32,139 nt of DNA, from positions 1 to 32,139 of the forward strand of contig JAQXGO010000107.1 of assembly GCA_029006755.1 (NCBI GenBank), read 5' to 3'. Numbering within the stretch: position 1 is the stretch's first letter; each line of letters starts with the position of its first letter. The DNA is from Clostridia bacterium. Its GTDB lineage: Bacteria; Bacillota; Clostridia; UMGS1883; UMGS1540. A program made the translations under genes and the position numbers. Below, in pieces: positions 4,401 to 21,092 of this stretch. The notes below the pieces were generated by a model. The model ran no database searches. It was not told the origin of the DNA and saw only the letters and a list, made by a program, of their open reading frames with translations.

Positions 4401-5053
4401 CTGCCGATTTACGCCGTAGTGTCCGTGCTCTTGGTAGCGTAAATGTTGATGCGATTGAGGAATATGCTGCTGTCAAAGAACGCTACGACTTCATGGAAAC
4501 ACAAATTAATGACCTCGAAAAGGCACGCGGAGAATTGCAAAAAATAATAATAGATATGACCCAAGTAATGACAGAAACCTTCGCAACGCAATTTGCACAA
4601 ATTGCCGCATGCTTTAAAGAAACCTTTGCTGCATTATTTGGCGGAGGCACCGGCAAACTAATCCTTTCAGACCCTTCGCATGTTCTTGAAAGCGGAATCG
4701 AAATTGATATCCAGCCACCCGGAAAAAAACTGCAAAGTCTTTCCCTTTTGTCCGGCGGTGAAAAAGCTTTGACTGCAATCGCCATTTTATTTGCAGTAAT
4801 GCGCGTTAAACCTGCTCCTTTTTGTATTTTGGACGAAATCGAATCTGCCTTGGATGATCATAATATTGCTCGATTTTCCTCATACTTAAGAGATTACGAG
4901 CAAACCCAATTTATCATTGTAACCCATAGACGTGGTACAATGGAAGCCGCAGATATTTTATATGGCGTCACAATGCAAGAAAAAGGAATTTCAAAAATAT
5001 TAACCATGCGACTTGATCGCACGGTGGACGGGAGTGAATATGACATTAGTTGA
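1493..5053 (+). CDS. smc: Chromosome segregation ATPase SMC
   Basis: This is full-length bacterial SMC (1186 aa), the ATPase core of condensin with ScpA/ScpB, which compacts and segregates the chromosome. Walker A GPNGSGKSN is at residues 31-39. Long coiled coils (about 170-490 and 670-1000) flank a hinge at about 500-665 (YGKGVRAIVNAHLP... onwards). The C-terminal head has the ABC signature LLSGGEKAL (about 1085-1093) and Walker B CILDEIESALDD (D1114, E1115). The start is taken as GTG 1493, giving MYLKKLDMVGFKSF like other SMC proteins; AGAAAGGTGG ends at 1484, 8 nt upstream. A TTG at 1487 is only 2 nt from that site. The gene end overlaps the following CARF gene. No ftsY follows, although the two are adjacent in many Firmicutes. 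Confidence 0.97.
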   Translation: MYLKKLDMVGFKSFKDKISISFDSNITAIVGPNGSGKSNITDAIRWVLGEQSVKSLRGSRMEDVIFAGTAKHKPLGFAEVSLTLDNSTGLFPSDYTELCVTRRVYRSGESEYMLNKVPCRLKDIQEIFMDTGLGRDGYSIIGQGKIDAILSAKAEDRRQIFEEAAGISKYKYRKNEASRKLVATEENLVRLRDISSELSARIGPLEAQARKARTYLDLYEKLKRLEINLSLLDIRNLQEQKKISSALFADSEQTYIEKSAFLHALQEKEQSLFSKMKDRDIEMEKSRSLLHGTALSIKEWEGECALWKQRIADLNDREKRILDDIAQKEDDLTLLKDEIQHAKDDIQTNTESLSQAETEVMNAEHDVEAAGVTITTQSMLTDSLHTNASRILLQAEDTKRRIETLLNGDAAERLKALTAEYEATQNKLSENKKAKESYAEKKHQLEQSAAKLSDEFNTLVSLKPKLTTKLQSLKNTYNQTLRDLNIRLSRQAALSDMEQNMEGYGKGVRAIVNAHLPAQIHGVLSKLIHVQPNYVTAVETALGGALQNIVVGTEEDAKLAIEYLKKTHNGRATFLPISAIHGRRLEQESSVSRMPGFVGLACDLVDCDAIYNQIILHLLGNVVVVKTIDNAIVMTRKFSHQFKIVTIEGELFLRGGSISGGSRGGQTGLLGRSDEIERLCEECDTLQQSLDETEEQIDATEDKIEDLIRKIEDLRTEARDLESEKLNLAGSIQLCDTLIENEEKQKARLQSDMDSTRAQILNADSERVRLTEEYNQLTAQHEAALQNVSDARTLLQTKMQERDTLRDILTQRRVAVNSIEKDLEANQAQLLLIENNMQKLQETILHCHAEIESITSTRKEIQLRLNNRQIDIENAKTQVLSMQANLDKMLDEKGDADRQAAKLRTDIQTQNEYLSAMLGEKARLEAKMEKVQEHLDSTINHLWDAYELTYSAAEAYREDIGDPKEARNQAADLRRSVRALGSVNVDAIEEYAAVKERYDFMETQINDLEKARGELQKIIIDMTQVMTETFATQFAQIAACFKETFAALFGGGTGKLILSDPSHVLESGIEIDIQPPGKKLQSLSLLSGGEKALTAIAILFAVMRVKPAPFCILDEIESALDDHNIARFSSYLRDYEQTQFIIVTHRRGTMEAADILYGVTMQEKGISKILTMRLDRTVDGSEYDIS

Positions 5054-6203
5054 GTTTTTTGATGATATTGCCATTCATAATGCTTTCAGTAGTCTGCTCT
5101 TTCATCCGGATCGACTGATTTTGGTCGGTAAGGATAAAAGGAAAATGGATGCCTTTCGCCTGCGCCTCCAATCTGTTTTCTTGTTGCGCGGCCTTCGAAC
5201 TAAAATTGAAATTCTTGTTATCAATAGCAAGAATTATCAAGAGGTACTGCATCAATTTGAAAAGCTATTACAAGTGTACACAGACTGTTATTTTGACATT
5301 ACAGACGGAGAAGAATCTATGCTGGTTGCCGTAGGTGCATTATCCGCTAAACATACAATTCCTATGCATACAGTACATCCAATTCATGGGAGCTTTTCAC
5401 CTATAAATGGGTTTTCTTATCCAACCGCACATTCTATTCAGCTTAGAATTTCAGAATTGATTGCCCTATATGGCGGAAAAATGACTGAAAGCTTTGCACC
5501 AAATCCGCAGGATAATTTCACGCGGCAAGCCTGTATGGACGCATGGGATATATGTAAACAGAATTGTTCCGCATGGAATAGTGCGATTAGCACAATACGA
5601 GCCGCACGCGCTTTTGAAGATGATTTAAATATTTCAATTCGGAAATCTGCCATATCCTCCGCTACAAACCGCAGCAATATGCAAAAATTTCTTGACAGTC
5701 TTGCTGCAAAAAAACTAATCGAAAACTATCGTTCAACCAATTTGACAATTTCCTTTTCCTATCCAAACGAAATCATTCGTCATATGCTCACAAAAGAAGG
5801 TTCCGTTTTGGAACTATACACGTATTATGCAGCTTATGGAAATACCTACACTGCTCCCTTTGACATTAAAACCGGTGTTGTGATTGACTGGCAAACAAAT
5901 CATACACCGGATCATAAAGATGATGTGCTAAATGAAATTGATGTGCTTCTAACGGAAAATGCGGCCCCCGTTTTTATCTCTTGCAAAAACGGCATGACCG
6001 ATACGAATGAGTTATATAAACTTTTTGTTGTTGCCGAACGATTCGGTGGTATGTATGCGAAAAAGATGATTGTGTTGACACACTTTAAGCCAGATGCTGC
6101 TTTTAAGGAACGAGCCCGCAGTCTTGGTATTGCAGTGTTGGAAAATGTGCATCGATTATCCTTTGATACATTCCAAAAAACCCTGACGGACTTTATTCAC
6201 TAA
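5040..6203 (+). CDS. CARF-domain protein of the DUF1887 / Card1-like nuclease family
   Basis: This 387-residue protein starts MTLVEFFDDIAIHNAF, like DUF1887 proteins. It is read as an N-terminal Rossmann-like CARF domain (about 1-150), a middle helical/winged-helix region, and a C-terminal PD-(D/E)XK nuclease fold (about 290-370). The CARF loop expected to hold the nucleotide reads FDITDGEESMLVAVGA (from D86). The nuclease-like segment is LNEIDVLL followed by PVFISCKNG (D301, S314, K316). In type III CRISPR, relatives Card1/Can2 cut nucleic acid when bound by cyclic oligoadenylate. Here there is no CRISPR locus, and the ATG at 5040 overlaps smc by 14 bp with GGACGGGAG upstream, suggesting translational coupling. 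Family assignment is from memory of motifs; the ligand, substrate and activity are unknown. Confidence 0.8.
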   Translation: MTLVEFFDDIAIHNAFSSLLFHPDRLILVGKDKRKMDAFRLRLQSVFLLRGLRTKIEILVINSKNYQEVLHQFEKLLQVYTDCYFDITDGEESMLVAVGALSAKHTIPMHTVHPIHGSFSPINGFSYPTAHSIQLRISELIALYGGKMTESFAPNPQDNFTRQACMDAWDICKQNCSAWNSAISTIRAARAFEDDLNISIRKSAISSATNRSNMQKFLDSLAAKKLIENYRSTNLTISFSYPNEIIRHMLTKEGSVLELYTYYAAYGNTYTAPFDIKTGVVIDWQTNHTPDHKDDVLNEIDVLLTENAAPVFISCKNGMTDTNELYKLFVVAERFGGMYAKKMIVLTHFKPDAAFKERARSLGIAVLENVHRLSFDTFQKTLTDFIH

Positions 6204-8722: not shown

Positions 8723-9217
8723 ATGGGGATTGATTTTCGTACTGTCCCTATGGAGTTAGTAATCAACATATTAAATATTGTTGTGCTTTATCTCCTCGTA
8801 CGGCTTTTGGTTTATAAACCTGTCAAGAATTTTATGCAAAATCGGCAGGACAGAATTCAAAATGATTTGGAAAGTGCTGCATCAAACCGAAAAACATCGG
8901 AAGATGCTTTGCATGGTTTACAAGATGAACTCGATGCAAATCGTAAGAAAGCAGCATTGGAAGCACAAGAGGTCACCAAATCCGCCGCGTTAGAAGCGGA
9001 AAAAATAATTTCTGCTGCTCGTGCAGAGGCTGATAAAATCATTACATCCGCGCGTTGTGAAGCCGAAGAAGAAAAAAAGGAAATGGTTCGAAAATCGCAA
9101 GACGAAATTGTTTCTATTGCCTGTAGCATGGCTGAAAAGCTTCTTGGCCGGGAAGTTAAACCGCAGGATAATGATGCAATTATTCAAAGCTTTTTAAAGG
9201 ACGGGAAGGTTCTATGA
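8723..9217 (+). CDS. atpF: F-type ATP synthase subunit b
   Basis: This 164-residue subunit is the peripheral stalk. It has one N-terminal membrane helix (about 11-30) followed by a long charged, alanine-rich amphipathic helix (about 35-145) expected to dimerise as a coiled coil. The C-terminus (MAEKLLGREV onwards) is the part that contacts delta. The length is normal, so it does not carry the delta N-terminal domain that is missing from the next gene. The stop overlaps the atpH start by 4 bp (ATGA). AAAGGAG precedes the start. Confidence 0.93.
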   Translation: MGIDFRTVPMELVINILNIVVLYLLVRLLVYKPVKNFMQNRQDRIQNDLESAASNRKTSEDALHGLQDELDANRKKAALEAQEVTKSAALEAEKIISAARAEADKIITSARCEAEEEKKEMVRKSQDEIVSIACSMAEKLLGREVKPQDNDAIIQSFLKDGKVL

Positions 9218-9450
9218 TCGCAAAACTAACCGTAACAAAGCAAATCACAAACACACAAATGGAAGCAATCCGTCAGAAGCTTTCGGATATCGCCCAAGAA
9301 AATGTAACGTTACAAACTGTCATTGATGATGCAATCATCGGTGGATTTGTTGCTGAATTAAACGGTAAAATTTACGATTGTTCGCTTAAAACGAGACTAA
9401 AGGAGCTGCAATCATACCTGAAGGTGGCTGAAAATGACAACAAATATTGA
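9214..9450 (+). CDS. atpH: F-type ATP synthase delta subunit, C-terminal domain only
   Basis: This protein has 78 residues, against about 175-185 for a normal delta subunit. The whole sequence aligns to the C-terminal domain: TVTKQITNTQMEAIRQKL, then TVIDDAIIGGFVAEL, then a SLKTRLKELQSYL helix. The six-helix N-terminal bundle that clamps delta onto the alpha-subunit tips is absent. The upstream bases all belong to an intact atpF, and overlaps on both sides (4 bp with atpF, 17 bp with atpA) argue against a recent frameshift or assembly break. It probably still joins the b stalk to F1, but how it holds alpha is unclear. Confidence 0.85.
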   Translation: MIAKLTVTKQITNTQMEAIRQKLSDIAQENVTLQTVIDDAIIGGFVAELNGKIYDCSLKTRLKELQSYLKVAENDNKY

Positions 9451-11783: not shown

Positions 11784-13441
<1,658 letters not shown>

Positions 13442-13450
13442 AACATTGGG

Positions 13451-13505
13451 TGGAAAACATGCAGTACATTCTGGGTGATTTTTCACCCTTTTTGTATGTT
13501 TTCCA
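13451..13505 (+). terminator. Terminator of ATP synthase operon, nested in a longer inverted repeat
   Basis: The inner stem GGGTGA (13473-13478) with TCACCC (13483-13488), 4-nt loop, is followed by TTTTT and is a standard intrinsic terminator. It is enclosed by a second perfect 10-bp inverted repeat, TGGAAAACAT (13451-13460) with ATGTTTTCCA (13496-13505). Confidence 0.82.
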
Positions 13506-13555
13506 ATGTATCGGTTAAACTATAACGTACTACATGAAATCAATCTGGAGGCGTT

Positions 13556-16500
13556 ATGAAGAAAACTGTTAAAAAGGATTTTTCACGTATTTACTTAACC
13601 TACAAGGCATGCAAAAAAAACAAAATCGGGTTAAAGTCCGGTTCTGTCGCTGAATGGCTCTGTGATAACTTTTATATTTTTGAAGAAGAATATGCCGCGA
13701 TTCAATCTCTGCGTCTTACACGGCGTTCCTCCAAACAATCCGCCCAAAAAGCTTACGACTGGGCAGTAGATTTTCTTACGCAGCACCAATATGTGATTGA
13801 AGAACAAACACTCTTTGCAGCAATGCAGCGTGCACAGACTTCCGCACCATTTTCCATTGGAGAGTTGCGTTTCCTTCCGTATGCCTTGCGTTGCGGATTA
13901 TTGTCACGTGCAGCAAAAGATTGTCAATCGACTGATGATGAGGGCGTTATGGGTAATATTGTCCGTTCCTTGATTGCGCTAAGAGATTTGGACTATGATG
14001 TTTTATTTGAAACTTACTCTATGATAGACAAGATTTTATCTAAGGACAAAATCTATCCGGAAATGAACGCTTCATCGAAGGATGTCTATCGTCGTGCCGT
14101 AAGCAAAATGGCATACTCCAGCCGAAAAAGTGAGTCAGAAGTTTGTGAAAAAGCATACATGCTTGTAAAGCAAAAAAAGGGAAAACAAAGCCATGTAGGC
14201 TATTACTTAATTGGTGAAGGCGAAAATCTTTTAAGAAAAGAACTGGGATTGCCTCCGCACAAAGAGGTCAATAAGCCTGTCATTTACATTGGCTGCATTT
14301 TATTCTTTTCTCTTGCCTTCGCTTATGGTTTGGCTGTTTCCACTCACAAAGTATTCTGGTCAATCTTGTCTATCATCCCACTGATGGATGCGATTATTAC
14401 CCTGTTACAATATCTTTTATTAAAGACCACCCCTGTACGTCCATTGCCGGCTTTAAAGCTTTCGAATGGCATCCCGGAATCCGTTCTGATCGTATATCCT
14501 ACTTTGCTTTCCTCTGTAAAAAAAGGTGAGGAAATGGCAAAAAAATTAGAAATATGTTATCTCGCGAACCGAGATAAAAATCTGCATTTTGCTGTTTTAG
14601 GTGATTTCAAAGATAGTGTCACGCATACAGAGGATGCTTCTATTCCTGCTGCTTGTCAAAAAGCTATTTCTGCACTGAATGAAAAATATGGCAACCATTT
14701 TTACCTTCTGCATAGAGGACAAACCTATTGTGAACGGCAGAATAAATGGATGGGATTAGAACGAAAGCGTGGGGCAATTTCGGATTTGAACGCTTTTTTA
14801 CGCAATCAATATGATTTTGCCTATACCGCCGGTCAAATTGAAAACCTACGCGGTATTCGTTATGTGTTAACTTTGGATGATGATACCCTATTGCCTCCTG
14901 GAGCGGCTGTACGAATGGTTGGTACAGCTCTGCATCCCCTCAACAAGCCCACAATAGAAAACGGCATAGTAACAAGCGGTTACGGCATTATTGAGCCTCG
15001 CGTCAGCGTTCGTCTCGAAAGTGCAGGAAAGACGTTTTTCTCAAGAATATTTGCAGGACAGGGCGGTATTGATACCTACCATAGTGCTGTTTCTGAATTC
15101 TATATGGATGTTTTTGGAGAGACGGTTTTTACCGGAAAAGGTCTTTACAATGTAGATACCTTTTCCGCCTGTATGTCTATTCCACCCGACACTGTACTCA
15201 GCCATGATCTTTTAGAGGGAAGTTATGTACGCTGTGCGCTTGCCTCTGACGTTCAGGTTTTCGATGGTTTTCCGGGGCGTTTTCTTGCTTTTTCATTACG
15301 TCAACATCGCTGGACACGCGGTGATTGGCAGCTTCTCCCATGGCTTTCAAACCATATACGGAACGAAAATGGACAAAAGATTAAAAATCCGCTAACGCTT
15401 TTGTCAAAATGGAAAATATTTGACAATCTGCGGCGTAGCATTACACCGATTTTTCAGCTAATCCTAATACTCAGTGGCTGTCGTTCTGCTATCCTTGTTG
15501 CACTGATTTCCTTGCTTTTACCGATGCTTTTATATCTCATTGATGCACTATTGCAAAAAAGTTATATTTTTATTGGTGAAAAAACAAACACAGGCATTGT
15601 CTACGGATTCAAAGCGATCTTATACCAAATGACGTTATCGTTTGCTTTTCTTGCGCATACTGCATATACTTCTTTTGACGCAGTATGCCTTGGAATATAT
15701 CGTGCTTGCACCCATCGCCGCACATTAGAATGGGTCACAGCCTCCGATGCTGAAACAGGCAGTGTAAACACATTGCTTGGCCACTACCGTGCAATGCTTT
15801 TCTCATTTGTAATTGGTATTCTATCCGTTTTATCTGTAATAACGGGTTTTGTGTACGAATCCAGTATTCCGCTTATTTTTGGCATTGTTTGGATTTTTTC
15901 TCCGGCCATAGCTTATATTACCGGTCAGGAAAGAGAACCAGTCAGTTACGGATTAACGTCGCAAAAAGAAAAGCTTCTGTTGGATTGTGCAACACGCATC
16001 TGGCACTTTTTTGCCGATTATATGACGGAAGCAGATCATTATCTTCCCCCAGACAATGTGCAAATAAAGCCTTATAAAGGCGTGGCTCACCGTACGAGTC
16101 CGACCAATATCGGGCTTGGTATGGTCGCCTGTCTTTGCGCTTGTAAATTAGGCTTAATTACGCCGGAAGAAATGCAAAACCGTATATCCAAAACCATGGA
16201 CACAGTCGAAAAATTAGAAACATGGAAAGGACATCTTTATAACTGGTATGATACTATAACCTGCAAACCCCTTTCCCCCAGATATGTATCGACTGTAGAC
16301 AGCGGAAATTTTCTCTGTTATTTAGTGGTAGCAGCTATGGGTATATCTACGTATACAGGTGAAAACCACCCACTTGTAAAAAGACTCTTACGTTTTGTTT
16401 GGAATGTGGATTTTAAGCCACTTTATAATGAAAAGAAAAAGCTTTTATCCATCGGATTTTCTGTGGAGGAAAACAGACTGACCAATTCTTACTATGACCT

Positions 16501-19500
16501 TCTTGCCAGTGAAGCAAGACAAGCCGGTTTTCTTGCCATTGCATTAGGGCAATTACCGCCGGAGCATTGGTTTAGTCTTGGGCGTGGGTTAACTTCTTCC
16601 GAGGGCTTTAAGGGACTGATCTCATGGTCAGGCACAATGTTTGAGTATTTAATGCCCCTTCTTATCATGAAATCTTATCGCGGAACGCTGCTCGATGAAA
16701 CCTATCGTTTTGCAGTAGGCTGTCAAAAGCGGTACGGCAGACGCAGGCACGTTCCATGGGGTGTATCAGAATCCGGTTTTTACGCTTTTGATACTGAAGG
16801 AAATTACCAGTATAAAGCATTTGGTGTACCGGAATTAGGACTTGTCCGTCATTTGGCCGATGATATTGTGATTGCTCCCTATGCAACCATACTGGCACTT
16901 ATGATCGACTCACGAAGTGCAATTGCAAACATGCAGCTTTTAAAGCGAGAGGGATTATATGGTGAATATGGTTTTTTTGAGGCTGCAGACTTTACAGAAG
17001 AAAGATTATCCGGTACAATGCGCCGCGGCGTAATAAAAAGCTACATGGCACATCATCAAGGCATGTCTCTTGCAGCGATTACAAACGTTTTATGTGACAA
17101 TTTTTTGCAACAAAAATTCCATGCCTATCCACCTATCCAAGCAATTGAACCACTCCTGAAGGAGCGTATTCCCCTTCGTGTGCCGGCCATCAGGGACCGA
17201 CAAGAACGCGTGCCGCCGGTACGCTACAAACGCACGTATGATGCAGAATGTGTGCGCCGCTTTAAAAATGTTGAAACGATGCCCCGCCCGGTACAACTAT
17301 TGTCAAACGGAAGTTATCATCTTTGTATCGATAGTGCAGGCCATGGATACAGTACTCTTGATGGGATCTATCTGCATAAAGTAAATGTGCCGTATTATAA
17401 TGGACAGGCAGTTTATATCGTGAATACTAACAGCGGGCAAGTGATGGACGGCTACGGAAACGATTGCACATTTTTCGGACACATGGCTATCTATCACGGC
17501 GAACAAAACAAACTAACCACCACTCTTCAAGTGAATGTAGATCCTGAAGACAACTGTGAAGTGCGACGCATTACAGTATGTAATACAGCCGGAAAGCCCC
17601 GAACTGTGGAAATTTACTATTATGCGGAGCCCTCCCTAACTACGCCTATGGCAAGCGAAGCGCATAATGCATTTTCCAATCTGTTTGTGCAAACGGAAGA
17701 ACAAAATGGCGTTTTGTATGCTGTGCGCCGAAAACGTACAGAAAATGAAAAAACATTCATTGGATTTGCTGCTGCAATCGAAGAAGGAAACAAAGAAGGC
17801 GCGTTACAGTATGATACGGATAGAATGTCTTTTTGGGGACGTGGCACAGAGTTTCCTGTTGCTGTCAAAAGCGGTAGCATTCTTGCCGGAAAAACCGGTA
17901 CAGTTCTCGATCCTGCTTTTGCTTTAAAAATAAGGCTCGAAATTAAAGACGGCGAGAGCGGTTCTGTAACTTTTCTATCGGGCCTTGTCGATACTAAGGA
18001 ACGAGCAACACAGATTGTAAATAAGTATAAAACACATCAGAAAAATGTGTCAAATGATGCCTATCAATATAAAAAGAATAACTCCCCGATTGCTTTTCAA
18101 GAAGGCGAAGAAGCAACATTCCTTCATGCCGCCGGATATTTGCTGTATGGTTTCGCGCCAACTCCTGCTATTCTAACAGCAAAGGAAAAAAATATGCGGC
18201 CTCGAAGCGATCTTTGGAAGTTCGGCATTTCCGGTGATAATCCTATATTATTTCTCGTATTGACAGACAGCGCAGATTTATCCTTGTTAGAAAGCTTTTT
18301 AAAAGCGCATCGTTACTTTAGAGAATACGGTATTCCAACAGACTTGGTTGTGTATTGTGATGAAAGCGGCGGTTACACCAAGCCTCTATTTGACACAGTT
18401 GTAAAAAAACGAGTGCCTAACGAATTTATTTTTGGAAGAAGCGATATTGACGAAGGTGATAAGCGTCTTTTAATTGCTTCGGCAAGTATCTATGCAGATA
18501 AGAGCACAGGCGGATTCTCTGCCCTGCCCCCTTATCCTGTACAGAATACAAAAAATGTGCACATTCAAGAAGGGCAACAAGACGAGGCGATCACACTGCC
18601 GAATCTGTTATATGCAAACGGATTTGGTGGATTTGATGCGCAAACAGGTGAATATGTTATACTACAGACTAAACGCTGTCAAACACCTTTGCCTTGGAGC
18701 CACATTGTAGCCAATCCGCATTTTGGGTTTATTGCAACTGAGAGCGGCGGCGGAAACACATGGAGCAATAACAGTCAAAGCTTTCGTATTTCTCCTTGGT
18801 ATAATGATGCTACCATTGACCCTTGCGGAGAACGCTTGATATTAAAAGATGGTGAGGATGTATGGTCCCCTATGGCCGGAATCTTTCCGGAAGAAGGTCA
18901 ATTCGTTACAAGATATGGGTTTGGTTACGTTTCCTACTATCGGAAAACGCGGAATATTTCTCATACCGCCACGTTATTCACGCCGCCGCAAGGCGAAAAA
19001 AAGGCTATTTTACTTTCACTGACGAATCACGAAAAAGAATCACGTACTCTTACAGTTGAATATGCCTTTACGCCTGTTCTCGGCACACAACCAAAGCCAA
19101 AGGATATTATTATTCTTGAAACCGGTAAACTGGTTCGTATGCGAAATGCGTTTCATGATACTATGAAGACGGTTTGTCTTTCTGCAGGTGAAGGCGGCCA
19201 ATGCGGCGGTGACTGCACGAATGTTTGGGCAAGACAATCCATTACACTTGTTCCTAATGAAACGCATAATATTTGTTTTACGATTTATACAGACGATGCA
19301 CCGATCACAGATGCTGCATCTGCCTTAAAAGAAACGAAAGCGTACTGGCAAAGCTGCCTTTCAGAGATAACCGTAGAAACTGCCGATGCATCTTTCAATC
19401 TATTACTCTCTGGCTGGCTTTTATACCAAGCACTATGCTGTCGGCTTTTTGCACGCAGTGCATTTTATCAATCCGGAGGTGCAACCGGCTTCCGCGATCA

Positions 19501-20797
19501 ATTGCAAGATGCATTAGCACTTCTATATACAAAGCCCGAGCTTGTACGAAAGCAGATATTATACCATGCATCTTACCAATTTACAGAAGGAGATGTTTTC
19601 CACTGGTGGCACGAAGACGAGAAAGGGGTTCGTACCAGAATTTCTGACGACCGATTATGGTTACCTTATGCAGCCTGCCGGTACTACGCTGTAACAAAAG
19701 ACGCCTCCATTTGGGAAGAAAAGACAAGCTTCGTATTGGAACCGCCACTTTCCCCCGGTGAAGATGAACGGTACACTTTTGTAAAGGAGCGCAGTGCGCC
19801 CGATACCCTTTATGAACATTGTCGCCGCGCTATTGAAATCTCGCTTGCAAAGGGTAATCATGGATTACCGCTTATGGGCGGCGGCGATTGGAATGATGGG
19901 ATGAACCGCGTTGGTATTGAAGGAAACGGAGAAAGCGTTTGGTTATGTTTCTTTCTAAAGCATGTTCTTGATTTATTTATTCCTATTGCTGCAGAAAGAG
20001 GCGACGATGCACTTGTAAAGCGATATAGCCATGAAAAAAGTCTTTTAATCGAAGCTGTTGATAGTTCCGCATGGGATAAAACACATTATGCACGTGCTTT
20101 TTTCGACAATGGCAATCCGTTAGGTACTTCTGCCTCTCCCGAGTGTGCAATGGATGCCATCAGCCAATCCTGGTCCGTTATTGCAAACTGCGGAAGCTCT
20201 GTTCACCAAAAGACGGCTATGGATTCTCTATATGATACATTGGTTGACCGGGAGCATAGACTGATCCGTCTTCTTACCCCTGCATTCGAAAAAACAAACC
20301 CCTCCCCCGGTTATATTCAAAGCTATCCGGCCGGAATACGAGAAAACGGGGGGCAATACACGCATGGTGCAATCTGGGCGGCCATTGCCTTTGCAATTTT
20401 AGGCGATTCAACAAGAGCTTACGAACTCTTTTCCATGTTGAATCCAATTTTGCGTAGCGATACTCCCGCTTCTGCGAACCTATATAAAACAGAGCCTTAT
20501 GTGATGACTGCAGATATCTATACCGCACCTACACACATTGGGCGAGGCGGATGGAGCTGGTATACCGGTGCTGCGTCTTGGATGTATCAACTTGGACTGG
20601 ATTATTTATTAGGATTTGAGAAAAAAGGGGATTCTGTCACGTTCCACCCTTGTCTTCCTGCGGACAAACTTGGTTTTACTCTCCGTATGCGTTTTGGCAA
20701 CACACAATATGTTTTTCATGTTTATGGTCCATCAGAAGTCATTCAGCTGATAGATGATGGAGAAACACATGAATTAACAGTTGGAAAGAATATTTAG
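13556..20797 (+). CDS. Cyclic beta-1,2-glucan synthase-like protein (GT84 + glycoamylase-like + GH94)
   Basis: This 2413-residue membrane enzyme resembles NdvB/ChvB. An N-terminal cytosolic region is followed by two membrane helices (about 241-290). A processive glycosyltransferase domain has D441-D443 (LTLDDDTLLPPGA), SHDLLEG (549-555) and QHRW (583-586). A second membrane block lies at about 629-790. A glycoamylase-like domain (about 810-1240, with GVSESGFYAFD and FGVPELGL) corresponds to the cyclising domain of known synthases. The C-terminus (about 1250-2413) is GH94-like, with LMGGGDWNDGMN (D2111, the likely general acid) and TAPTHIGRGGWSWYTG. Known synthases make beta-1,2-glucan from UDP-glucose, then cyclise it and trim its length. 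It is shorter than proteobacterial forms (about 2800 aa). GGAGG precedes the ATG. The product here is inferred. Confidence 0.85.
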   Translation: MKKTVKKDFSRIYLTYKACKKNKIGLKSGSVAEWLCDNFYIFEEEYAAIQSLRLTRRSSKQSAQKAYDWAVDFLTQHQYVIEEQTLFAAMQRAQTSAPFSIGELRFLPYALRCGLLSRAAKDCQSTDDEGVMGNIVRSLIALRDLDYDVLFETYSMIDKILSKDKIYPEMNASSKDVYRRAVSKMAYSSRKSESEVCEKAYMLVKQKKGKQSHVGYYLIGEGENLLRKELGLPPHKEVNKPVIYIGCILFFSLAFAYGLAVSTHKVFWSILSIIPLMDAIITLLQYLLLKTTPVRPLPALKLSNGIPESVLIVYPTLLSSVKKGEEMAKKLEICYLANRDKNLHFAVLGDFKDSVTHTEDASIPAACQKAISALNEKYGNHFYLLHRGQTYCERQNKWMGLERKRGAISDLNAFLRNQYDFAYTAGQIENLRGIRYVLTLDDDTLLPPGAAVRMVGTALHPLNKPTIENGIVTSGYGIIEPRVSVRLESAGKTFFSRIFAGQGGIDTYHSAVSEFYMDVFGETVFTGKGLYNVDTFSACMSIPPDTVLSHDLLEGSYVRCALASDVQVFDGFPGRFLAFSLRQHRWTRGDWQLLPWLSNHIRNENGQKIKNPLTLLSKWKIFDNLRRSITPIFQLILILSGCRSAILVALISLLLPMLLYLIDALLQKSYIFIGEKTNTGIVYGFKAILYQMTLSFAFLAHTAYTSFDAVCLGIYRACTHRRTLEWVTASDAETGSVNTLLGHYRAMLFSFVIGILSVLSVITGFVYESSIPLIFGIVWIFSPAIAYITGQEREPVSYGLTSQKEKLLLDCATRIWHFFADYMTEADHYLPPDNVQIKPYKGVAHRTSPTNIGLGMVACLCACKLGLITPEEMQNRISKTMDTVEKLETWKGHLYNWYDTITCKPLSPRYVSTVDSGNFLCYLVVAAMGISTYTGENHPLVKRLLRFVWNVDFKPLYNEKKKLLSIGFSVEENRLTNSYYDLLASEARQAGFLAIALGQLPPEHWFSLGRGLTSSEGFKGLISWSGTMFEYLMPLLIMKSYRGTLLDETYRFAVGCQKRYGRRRHVPWGVSESGFYAFDTEGNYQYKAFGVPELGLVRHLADDIVIAPYATILALMIDSRSAIANMQLLKREGLYGEYGFFEAADFTEERLSGTMRRGVIKSYMAHHQGMSLAAITNVLCDNFLQQKFHAYPPIQAIEPLLKERIPLRVPAIRDRQERVPPVRYKRTYDAECVRRFKNVETMPRPVQLLSNGSYHLCIDSAGHGYSTLDGIYLHKVNVPYYNGQAVYIVNTNSGQVMDGYGNDCTFFGHMAIYHGEQNKLTTTLQVNVDPEDNCEVRRITVCNTAGKPRTVEIYYYAEPSLTTPMASEAHNAFSNLFVQTEEQNGVLYAVRRKRTENEKTFIGFAAAIEEGNKEGALQYDTDRMSFWGRGTEFPVAVKSGSILAGKTGTVLDPAFALKIRLEIKDGESGSVTFLSGLVDTKERATQIVNKYKTHQKNVSNDAYQYKKNNSPIAFQEGEEATFLHAAGYLLYGFAPTPAILTAKEKNMRPRSDLWKFGISGDNPILFLVLTDSADLSLLESFLKAHRYFREYGIPTDLVVYCDESGGYTKPLFDTVVKKRVPNEFIFGRSDIDEGDKRLLIASASIYADKSTGGFSALPPYPVQNTKNVHIQEGQQDEAITLPNLLYANGFGGFDAQTGEYVILQTKRCQTPLPWSHIVANPHFGFIATESGGGNTWSNNSQSFRISPWYNDATIDPCGERLILKDGEDVWSPMAGIFPEEGQFVTRYGFGYVSYYRKTRNISHTATLFTPPQGEKKAILLSLTNHEKESRTLTVEYAFTPVLGTQPKPKDIIILETGKLVRMRNAFHDTMKTVCLSAGEGGQCGGDCTNVWARQSITLVPNETHNICFTIYTDDAPITDAASALKETKAYWQSCLSEITVETADASFNLLLSGWLLYQALCCRLFARSAFYQSGGATGFRDQLQDALALLYTKPELVRKQILYHASYQFTEGDVFHWWHEDEKGVRTRISDDRLWLPYAACRYYAVTKDASIWEEKTSFVLEPPLSPGEDERYTFVKERSAPDTLYEHCRRAIEISLAKGNHGLPLMGGGDWNDGMNRVGIEGNGESVWLCFFLKHVLDLFIPIAAERGDDALVKRYSHEKSLLIEAVDSSAWDKTHYARAFFDNGNPLGTSASPECAMDAISQSWSVIANCGSSVHQKTAMDSLYDTLVDREHRLIRLLTPAFEKTNPSPGYIQSYPAGIRENGGQYTHGAIWAAIAFAILGDSTRAYELFSMLNPILRSDTPASANLYKTEPYVMTADIYTAPTHIGRGGWSWYTGAASWMYQLGLDYLLGFEKKGDSVTFHPCLPADKLGFTLRMRFGNTQYVFHVYGPSEVIQLIDDGETHELTVGKNI

Positions 20798-20825: not shown

Positions 20826-20854
20826 TTGACAAATTGCTTATGGAGGTCTATAAT
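20826..20854 (+). promoter_or_regulatory. Promoter of the lysine-riboswitch transporter operon
   Basis: The consensus pair TTGACA (20826-20831) and TATAAT (20849-20854) has a 17-bp spacer. Transcription would begin near 20861, just ahead of the riboswitch. Confidence 0.9.
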
Positions 20855-20885
20855 GACAATATCATTTAACTTGTTGATATACTTG

Positions 20886-21059
20886 ATATGGTAGAGGTGC
20901 GAAATCTATCAGTAGCATGTTACAGTCGTCGGTAAACGCACATGTGAAAGGAGCTTTCGCCGAAGCGTAATGGATGTTACCGCATCCGGCACGTTGGGGT
21001 CTTGCAAAATATGTAAGGCACTGTCATTTAGGTGCAGCCTAAGTGGAGAGCTATCATGG
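20886..21059 (+). ncRNA. Lysine riboswitch (L-box) aptamer
   Basis: The conserved L-box core is present in order: AGAGGTGCGAA (20893-20903), AGTAGC, GTGAAAGGAGCTTTCGCCGAAGCG as a split core block, GGCACTGTCA, and TGGAGAGCTATC near 21044-21055. The closing P1 helix pairs ATGGTAG (20888-20894) with CTATCAT (21051-21057), with one G-U pair. L-box RNAs bind free lysine and switch off downstream biosynthesis or uptake genes. Here the aptamer precedes an intrinsic terminator and an amino acid ABC transporter, so lysine should repress the transporter by premature termination. Confidence 0.95.
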
Positions 21060-21092
21060 ATTTTGAATACGGTCCATTGTACCATGTTTTTT

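Follow-up and report, generated by a model that had tools for sequence, protein, structure and literature searches.

The closest described systems are the cyclic beta-1,2-glucan synthases (CGS) of Agrobacterium tumefaciens (Cgs/ChvB; PDB 8rf9, 8rf0) and T. italicus (PDB 8wy1). For the Agrobacterium enzyme, the structure paper reports that function is lost or reduced when glycosyltransferase, primer or cyclization residues are changed, the effect at D2528 being only minor, that a TPR-like motif in the N-terminal domain touches the primer, and that a stretch of ~120 residues in the cyclization domain forms a four-helix motif which is part of a back-to-back dimer (PMC10901819). The T. italicus enzyme provided the founding GH189 domain, which is also the best studied; its cyclization domain has been demonstrated to form rings, changes at E1442 and E1356 abolish or reduce function, and extra mid-region helices are described as unique to CGS, being absent from related beta-1,2-glucanases with the same barrel (PMC10834661). 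T. italicus is classified in Clostridia, and a review calls it Gram-negative. The alphaproteobacterial Cgs-Cgt-Cgm system has a dedicated ABC exporter (ChvA/NdvA/Cgt) and a glucan modifier (Cgm). E. coli provided with the Brucella Cgs alone is reported to make ring glucan and to retain it in the cell (PMC11071196). Here we compare with these systems a CGS-like gene in the window, which is the whole stretch of 32,139 nucleotides analysed (GCA_029006755.1, contig JAQXGO010000107.1, a Clostridia bacterium from the gut).

Enzyme identity and the origin of its short length

The first-pass annotation had proposed a synthase with a GT84 membrane part, a glycoamylase-like part and a GH94 part, several hundred residues shorter than the proteobacterial enzymes. 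Both the open reading frame and this three-part architecture were confirmed (Table 1), and the length difference is real (2413 versus 2818 aa in 8rf0_A). Pfam recognizes the glycoamylase domain PF10091 at residues 979-1191 (2.7e-22) and the GH94 parts but leaves the glycosyltransferase PF13632 below its cut-off (21.8 versus 27 bits); comparison with the solved structures settles the predicted identity of the enzyme. Agrobacterium Cgs matches with E = 0 in several blocks across residues 130-2380, which excludes chance resemblance; 457 bits fall on residues 130-927, including the glycosyltransferase domain, and that stretch alone matches at 1e-57. The T. italicus cyclization domain matches at 2.2e-138. 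Hydropathy indicates two membrane segments ahead of the glycosyltransferase domain and three or more behind it, a pattern that would fit the six-helix membrane domain described for Agrobacterium Cgs, with which the window enzyme also shares the domain order.

Table 1. Features of the CGS gene and its flanks, in window coordinates
Feature	Position	Strand	Basis or remark
Terminator-like hairpin with T-run, between atpC and CGS gene	13473..13488	+	z -4.35 for 13441-13520
Ribosome-binding site GGAGG of CGS gene	13547..13551	+	Read directly from sequence
CGS open reading frame	13556..20797	+	2413 aa, ATG start, no internal stops
Reduced N-terminal domain, residues 1-237 (limits approximate)	13556..14266	+	132 residues ahead of GNIV motif
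First two membrane segments, residues 241-289	14276..14422	+	Hydropathy
GT84 catalytic domain, residues about 303-625 (limits approximate)	14462..15430	+	Structure comparison, residue mapping
Y508, counterpart of primer-carrying Y694 in Agrobacterium Cgs	15077..15079	+	Alignment; tyrosine in 53/53
Membrane segments behind GT domain, residues 629-790	15440..15925	+	Hydropathy
GH189 cyclization domain, residues about 805-1235	15968..17260	+	Alignment, mapped residues
Place of missing four-helix motif, residues 928-944	16337..16387	+	Faces about 142 Agrobacterium Cgs residues
E986, putative GH189 acid/base	16511-16513	+	Role transferred from T. italicus
E1072, putative GH189 nucleophile	16769-16771	+	Role transferred from T. 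italicus
GH94 supersandwich, first stretch, residues 1246-1476	17291..17983	+	Pfam PF06165, plus second stretch (8.6e-74)
Second beta-rich stretch of GH94 part, residues 1684-1838	18605..19069	+	Comparison with solved structures
GH94 catalytic domain, residues 1930-2353	19343..20614	+	Pfam PF17167, 1.8e-109
D2114, putative GH94 general acid	19895-19897	+	Alignment
-35/-10 site TTGACA-17-TATAAT, perfect	20826-20854	+	Downstream of CGS gene
Lysine riboswitch	20884-21061	+	102.9 bits; precedes amino-acid ABC importer

Eighteen residues of known or proposed importance were placed using the numbering of the structure papers and alignments to the solved enzymes. Across 34 near-full-length homologues, seventeen of these positions never vary, and at the remaining one, D350, 33 of the sequences agree (alignment drawn from 41 sequences, with the fragments or split genes L013, L062, L064, L066, L067, L070 and L071 omitted). 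A larger set comprises 53 of the 54 sequences beyond those seven, L103 (three reading frames) being excluded; ten examined positions, including Y508 and the GH189 glutamates, are invariant in 53/53. The GT84 residues of the window enzyme are D350, R403, D441, D443, D551, R585, W586 and R588. An absent GT84 similarity or a dead glycosyltransferase had been named as grounds for abandoning the assignment; the similarity is present and all tested glycosyltransferase residues map and are conserved, as are the tested primer, cyclization and GH94 residues of Agrobacterium Cgs. The T. italicus alignment gives 141 and 324 bits on the two sides of a gap, with the same catalytic residues. The counterparts of E1400, H1536, H1537, W1394 and D1104 are identical in 34/34, and that of W1109 in 53/53. 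We infer from these alignments that the barrel of the cyclization domain is intact; an AlphaFold2 model of this domain, built from three sequences (window, L001 and L002), has a mean pLDDT of 39.1, too low to bear on this point.

The length deficit has two main sources, about 125 residues falling in the four-helix motif and about 150 at the N-terminus, with the remainder distributed across the glycosyltransferase and GH94 parts. Opposite 17 window residues, Agrobacterium Cgs has about 142 (about 1117-1258), while T. italicus CGS, which keeps the inserted helices, has ~164 residues opposite four (941-944), its chain residues 148-311 being without a window counterpart. Judged from its domain and length, this gap most probably corresponds to the four-helix motif, and the motif was accordingly scored as absent from the window enzyme. 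Because related glucanases share the barrel without extra helices, the missing piece appears to be an addition to the barrel rather than part of it; with catalysis assigned to the barrel, we have not counted this piece as CGS-defining. At the N-terminus, window residue 131 aligns with Agrobacterium residue 284, and the GNIV motif is preceded by 132 residues compared with 229-311 in most long forms, a shortening of roughly 100-160 residues. The open frame extends only six codons upstream of the ATG (2419 aa in total) and a GGAGG sequence precedes this start, so the short N-terminus is not an error of start calling. At the level of sequence, then, shortness is the absence of an accessory motif together with a reduced N-terminal domain and not active-site decay. 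As the four-helix dimer contact is absent, the enzyme would be monomeric or would dimerize by another route.

Distribution and phylogeny of forms with and without the motif

A whole-protein query matched 53 of 98 related genomes, many at the GH94 part only. Searching 293 Clostridia genomes for the cyclization domain gave matches at 1e-40 or better in 112. The first-pass annotation had implied that an enzyme known from proteobacteria is odd in a cell of Gram-positive type; this part of its interpretation does not stand given this distribution and the founding of GH189 on a Clostridia enzyme, leaving the interpretation as a whole partly supported. Matches running unbroken across the place of the motif (a single match with query start <= 23 and end >= 422, judged from match rows) were found in 24 of the 112 genomes, which is an undercount because G166, with 97 residues between anchors, was scored as broken. 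Four of the five genomes of the window's family retain the gene with its frame intact, and it occurs in one (G005) of the 16 other genomes of the order.

A quick LG+G4 tree of 53 sequences left out the N-terminus and the insert; 24 of its sequences are short, and at least eight changes of state are needed. We defined short as 100 residues or fewer between anchors, a threshold set in this analysis and straddled by the spacings within one genus (g95; 77, 77, 80, 97 and 137). Short forms are thus scattered over the tree, with active sites that are intact as far as aligned residues can indicate. The AU test rejected both a common origin for every short form (p 7.8e-92) and a grouping of the window clade with three f21-family short forms (p 0.006); the groups were defined after inspection of the tree, which has long branches, and letter composition is uneven. 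The change counts give no direction, but the short forms of G223, G068 and G038 sit within groups of long ones, and loss is likely there. The CGS-like protein on plasmid 2 of Gemmatirosa kalamazoonensis (L078), from a different phylum, likewise lacks the four-helix stretch (80 residues between anchors), while its N-terminal domain is full-size and it groups with proteobacterial sequences; it and the f21 forms nest among long forms, and the motif has probably been lost in these. The window clade consists of five sequences, all short (71-72 residues between anchors), and is compatible with both gain and loss.

CGS-like genes also occur on plasmids of enterobacteria and other bacteria, where 174 records match, 126 of them with one place spanning at least 80% of the query; enterobacterial examples are NZ_CP102245.1 (E. 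coli), NZ_CP042531.1 (Klebsiella aerogenes) and NZ_CP090208.1 (Pantoea agglomerans). In seven Clostridia genomes (L100, L104, L110, L111, L062, L064 and L103) the gene is in two parts near window residues 1600-1690, and L064 has an extra break near residues 640-690, giving three reading frames. The second frame can start -16 to +6 bases from the end of the first stop, mostly after a GGAGG-like sequence. This arrangement is suggestive of a translationally coupled enzyme of two subunits, with sequencing errors as an alternative.

Genomic context of the synthase gene

A terminator-like hairpin parts the CGS gene from the ATP synthase operon, so that it probably forms its own transcription unit, although such sites were about as frequent in the scan (9) as in shuffled sequence (8.3). 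The ATP synthase was rejected as an operon partner. The amino-acid ABC importer on the other side was likewise rejected because it has its own lysine riboswitch and a perfect TTGACA-17-TATAAT site; the riboswitch indicates that the importer is probably for lysine, and a link of these three elements to glucan synthesis is not evident. GC content (0.429) and GC3 (0.364) of the CGS gene lie inside the range of eight neighbour genes tested (0.405-0.456 and 0.325-0.377) and give no sign of recent import.

The 23 other genes of the window were compared with stretches around five homologues (L001 and L074 being one contig). A glycerate kinase gene recurs (60% identity), converging with the CGS gene in L001/L074; it directly follows the CGS gene in L001, whereas amino-acid ABC genes intervene in the window. 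The only other recurring window gene encodes SMC, at the far edge of L073, and none recurs in L002 or L072. No glucan gene was found among the recurring neighbours, and ten reading frames near the relatives' CGS genes share no common family, at least one of them (L001:17219-18457) being spurious, opposite the glycerate kinase gene. The surroundings are thus loosely conserved. The annotation's statement that no exporter or glucan-modifying gene adjoins the CGS gene was borne out, and no counterpart of Cgm lies next to it.

Three further observations concern other genes of the window. The ATP synthase delta gene (9214-9450, +) encodes 78 aa, which match the OSCP model (172 positions) at 105-172 only, and overlaps its neighbours atpF and atpA; 15 of the 16 genomes of the order with a match span nearly the whole model, the window genome alone being cut, and five of the 21 genomes of the order, including all three of one genus (g3), have no match. 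The epsilon gene (13178-13441, +; 87 aa) encodes the beta-sandwich PF02823 (4.8e-15) with no room for the C-terminal helical domain; together these look like a pared-down F1Fo ATP synthase. After the SMC gene, a reading frame of 396 aa (5013-6203, +) has a weak match to a Card1-like endonuclease domain (25.5 bits versus a cut-off of 26.4).

Proposed mechanism, alternatives and implications

The window genome (1.78 Mb, 98.25% complete) is divided into 118 contigs, and absences of genes from it are therefore not absolute. GalU is present (395.6 bits, cut-off 326.8), and neither a second PF10091 (GH144/GH189-type) domain nor another GH94 gene was found in the genome. The description of a Gram-positive-type genome is supported by the finding of neither Omp85 nor LpxC and by nearest named relatives that are Clostridia/Oscillospiraceae MAGs; sortase was not found either. 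None of the five ABC_membrane proteins (ABC exporters) reaches a curated cut-off for a dedicated ChvA/NdvA/Cgt exporter, in contrast to Agrobacterium and the alphaproteobacterial system, so the annotation's local statement extends to the genome at these cut-offs.

We consider it very probable that, taken as a whole, the gene encodes a compact CGS of known mechanism that lacks the four-helix motif and whose rings most likely stay in the cytoplasm. GalU would supply UDP-glucose, with which the GT84 domain would glucosylate Tyr508 and lengthen a beta-1,2-glucan attached to that residue, at the cytoplasmic face of the membrane. GH94 would shorten the chain with phosphate, giving glucose 1-phosphate, and GH189, in which Glu1072 would be the nucleophile and Glu986 the acid/base, would join the chain to its own end and release a ring. 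A point against this reading is the reduction of the N-terminal domain, the part that in Agrobacterium Cgs carries the primer-touching TPR-like motif. The Brucella experiment in E. coli indicates that an exporter is unnecessary for synthesis and, by analogy, the product of a lone CGS would be expected to remain in the cell; the rings are thus probably retained in the cytoplasm, where they may serve as an osmolyte or reserve.

An alternative is that the same synthesis feeds a surface or secreted glucan because a general ABC exporter carries the rings out. The five ABC exporters make this conceivable, the best reaching 307 bits on the chvA model and 391 on the glucan exporter model NF010178, but all lie far below the cut-offs (585.4 and 733), score higher on MsbA-type or other general models, and are encoded away from the CGS gene. 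These cut-offs presumably rest on proteobacterial proteins, which weakens this evidence; we regard export as the less likely course. It is improbable that the enzyme makes a linear beta-1,2-glucan, with motif loss marking a cyclization domain whose function is lost or changed. The missing stretch does sit within that domain, and in titles and abstracts of open-licence papers we found neither a paper nor activity data on a CGS lacking the motif, and none on Gram-positive ring glucans; against this, both catalytic glutamates and the six further counterparts listed above are invariant, and the motif-free barrels of the glucanases indicate that the barrel does not need the extra helices. Least probable of all is a mainly degradative role in which GH94 obtains energy by phosphorolysis of beta-1,2-glucans and the other domains are vestiges. 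This would suit a genome in which no other GH94 gene was found, but conserved GT84 residues and primer tyrosine are unexpected in a vestige, there is no other PF10091-type domain in the genome, and no glucan importer adjoins the gene, the neighbouring ABC importer lying behind a lysine riboswitch.

Returning to the compact, ring-forming CGS, its architecture is already ordinary in Clostridia; what is new is a compact variant of a known enzyme, and it is the recurrent absence of the dimer motif that deserves further attention. More tentatively, and with less than even confidence, we suggest that the Agrobacterium dimer is not basic to the mechanism and that its four-helix contact was shed, or never had, many times. 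This would have given compact, probably monomeric synthases, in some relatives divided into two translationally coupled genes, whose cytoplasmic rings may act as osmolyte or reserve in single-membrane gut Clostridia, in place of a glucan in the periplasm. The exact role of the Agrobacterium dimer is stated to be unclear in the structure paper (PMC10901819), and natural motif-free enzymes with their catalytic residues in place make that role directly testable; their smaller size also makes them convenient for structural and synthetic studies of ring glucans. Finally, CGS in 112 of 293 Clostridia genomes raises the question of how ring glucans are used in cells that lack an outer membrane, those living in the gut among them. 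The annotation's point that such a cell would need a non-periplasmic use for the product stands as a question for much of the class Clostridia, beyond the window genome alone.
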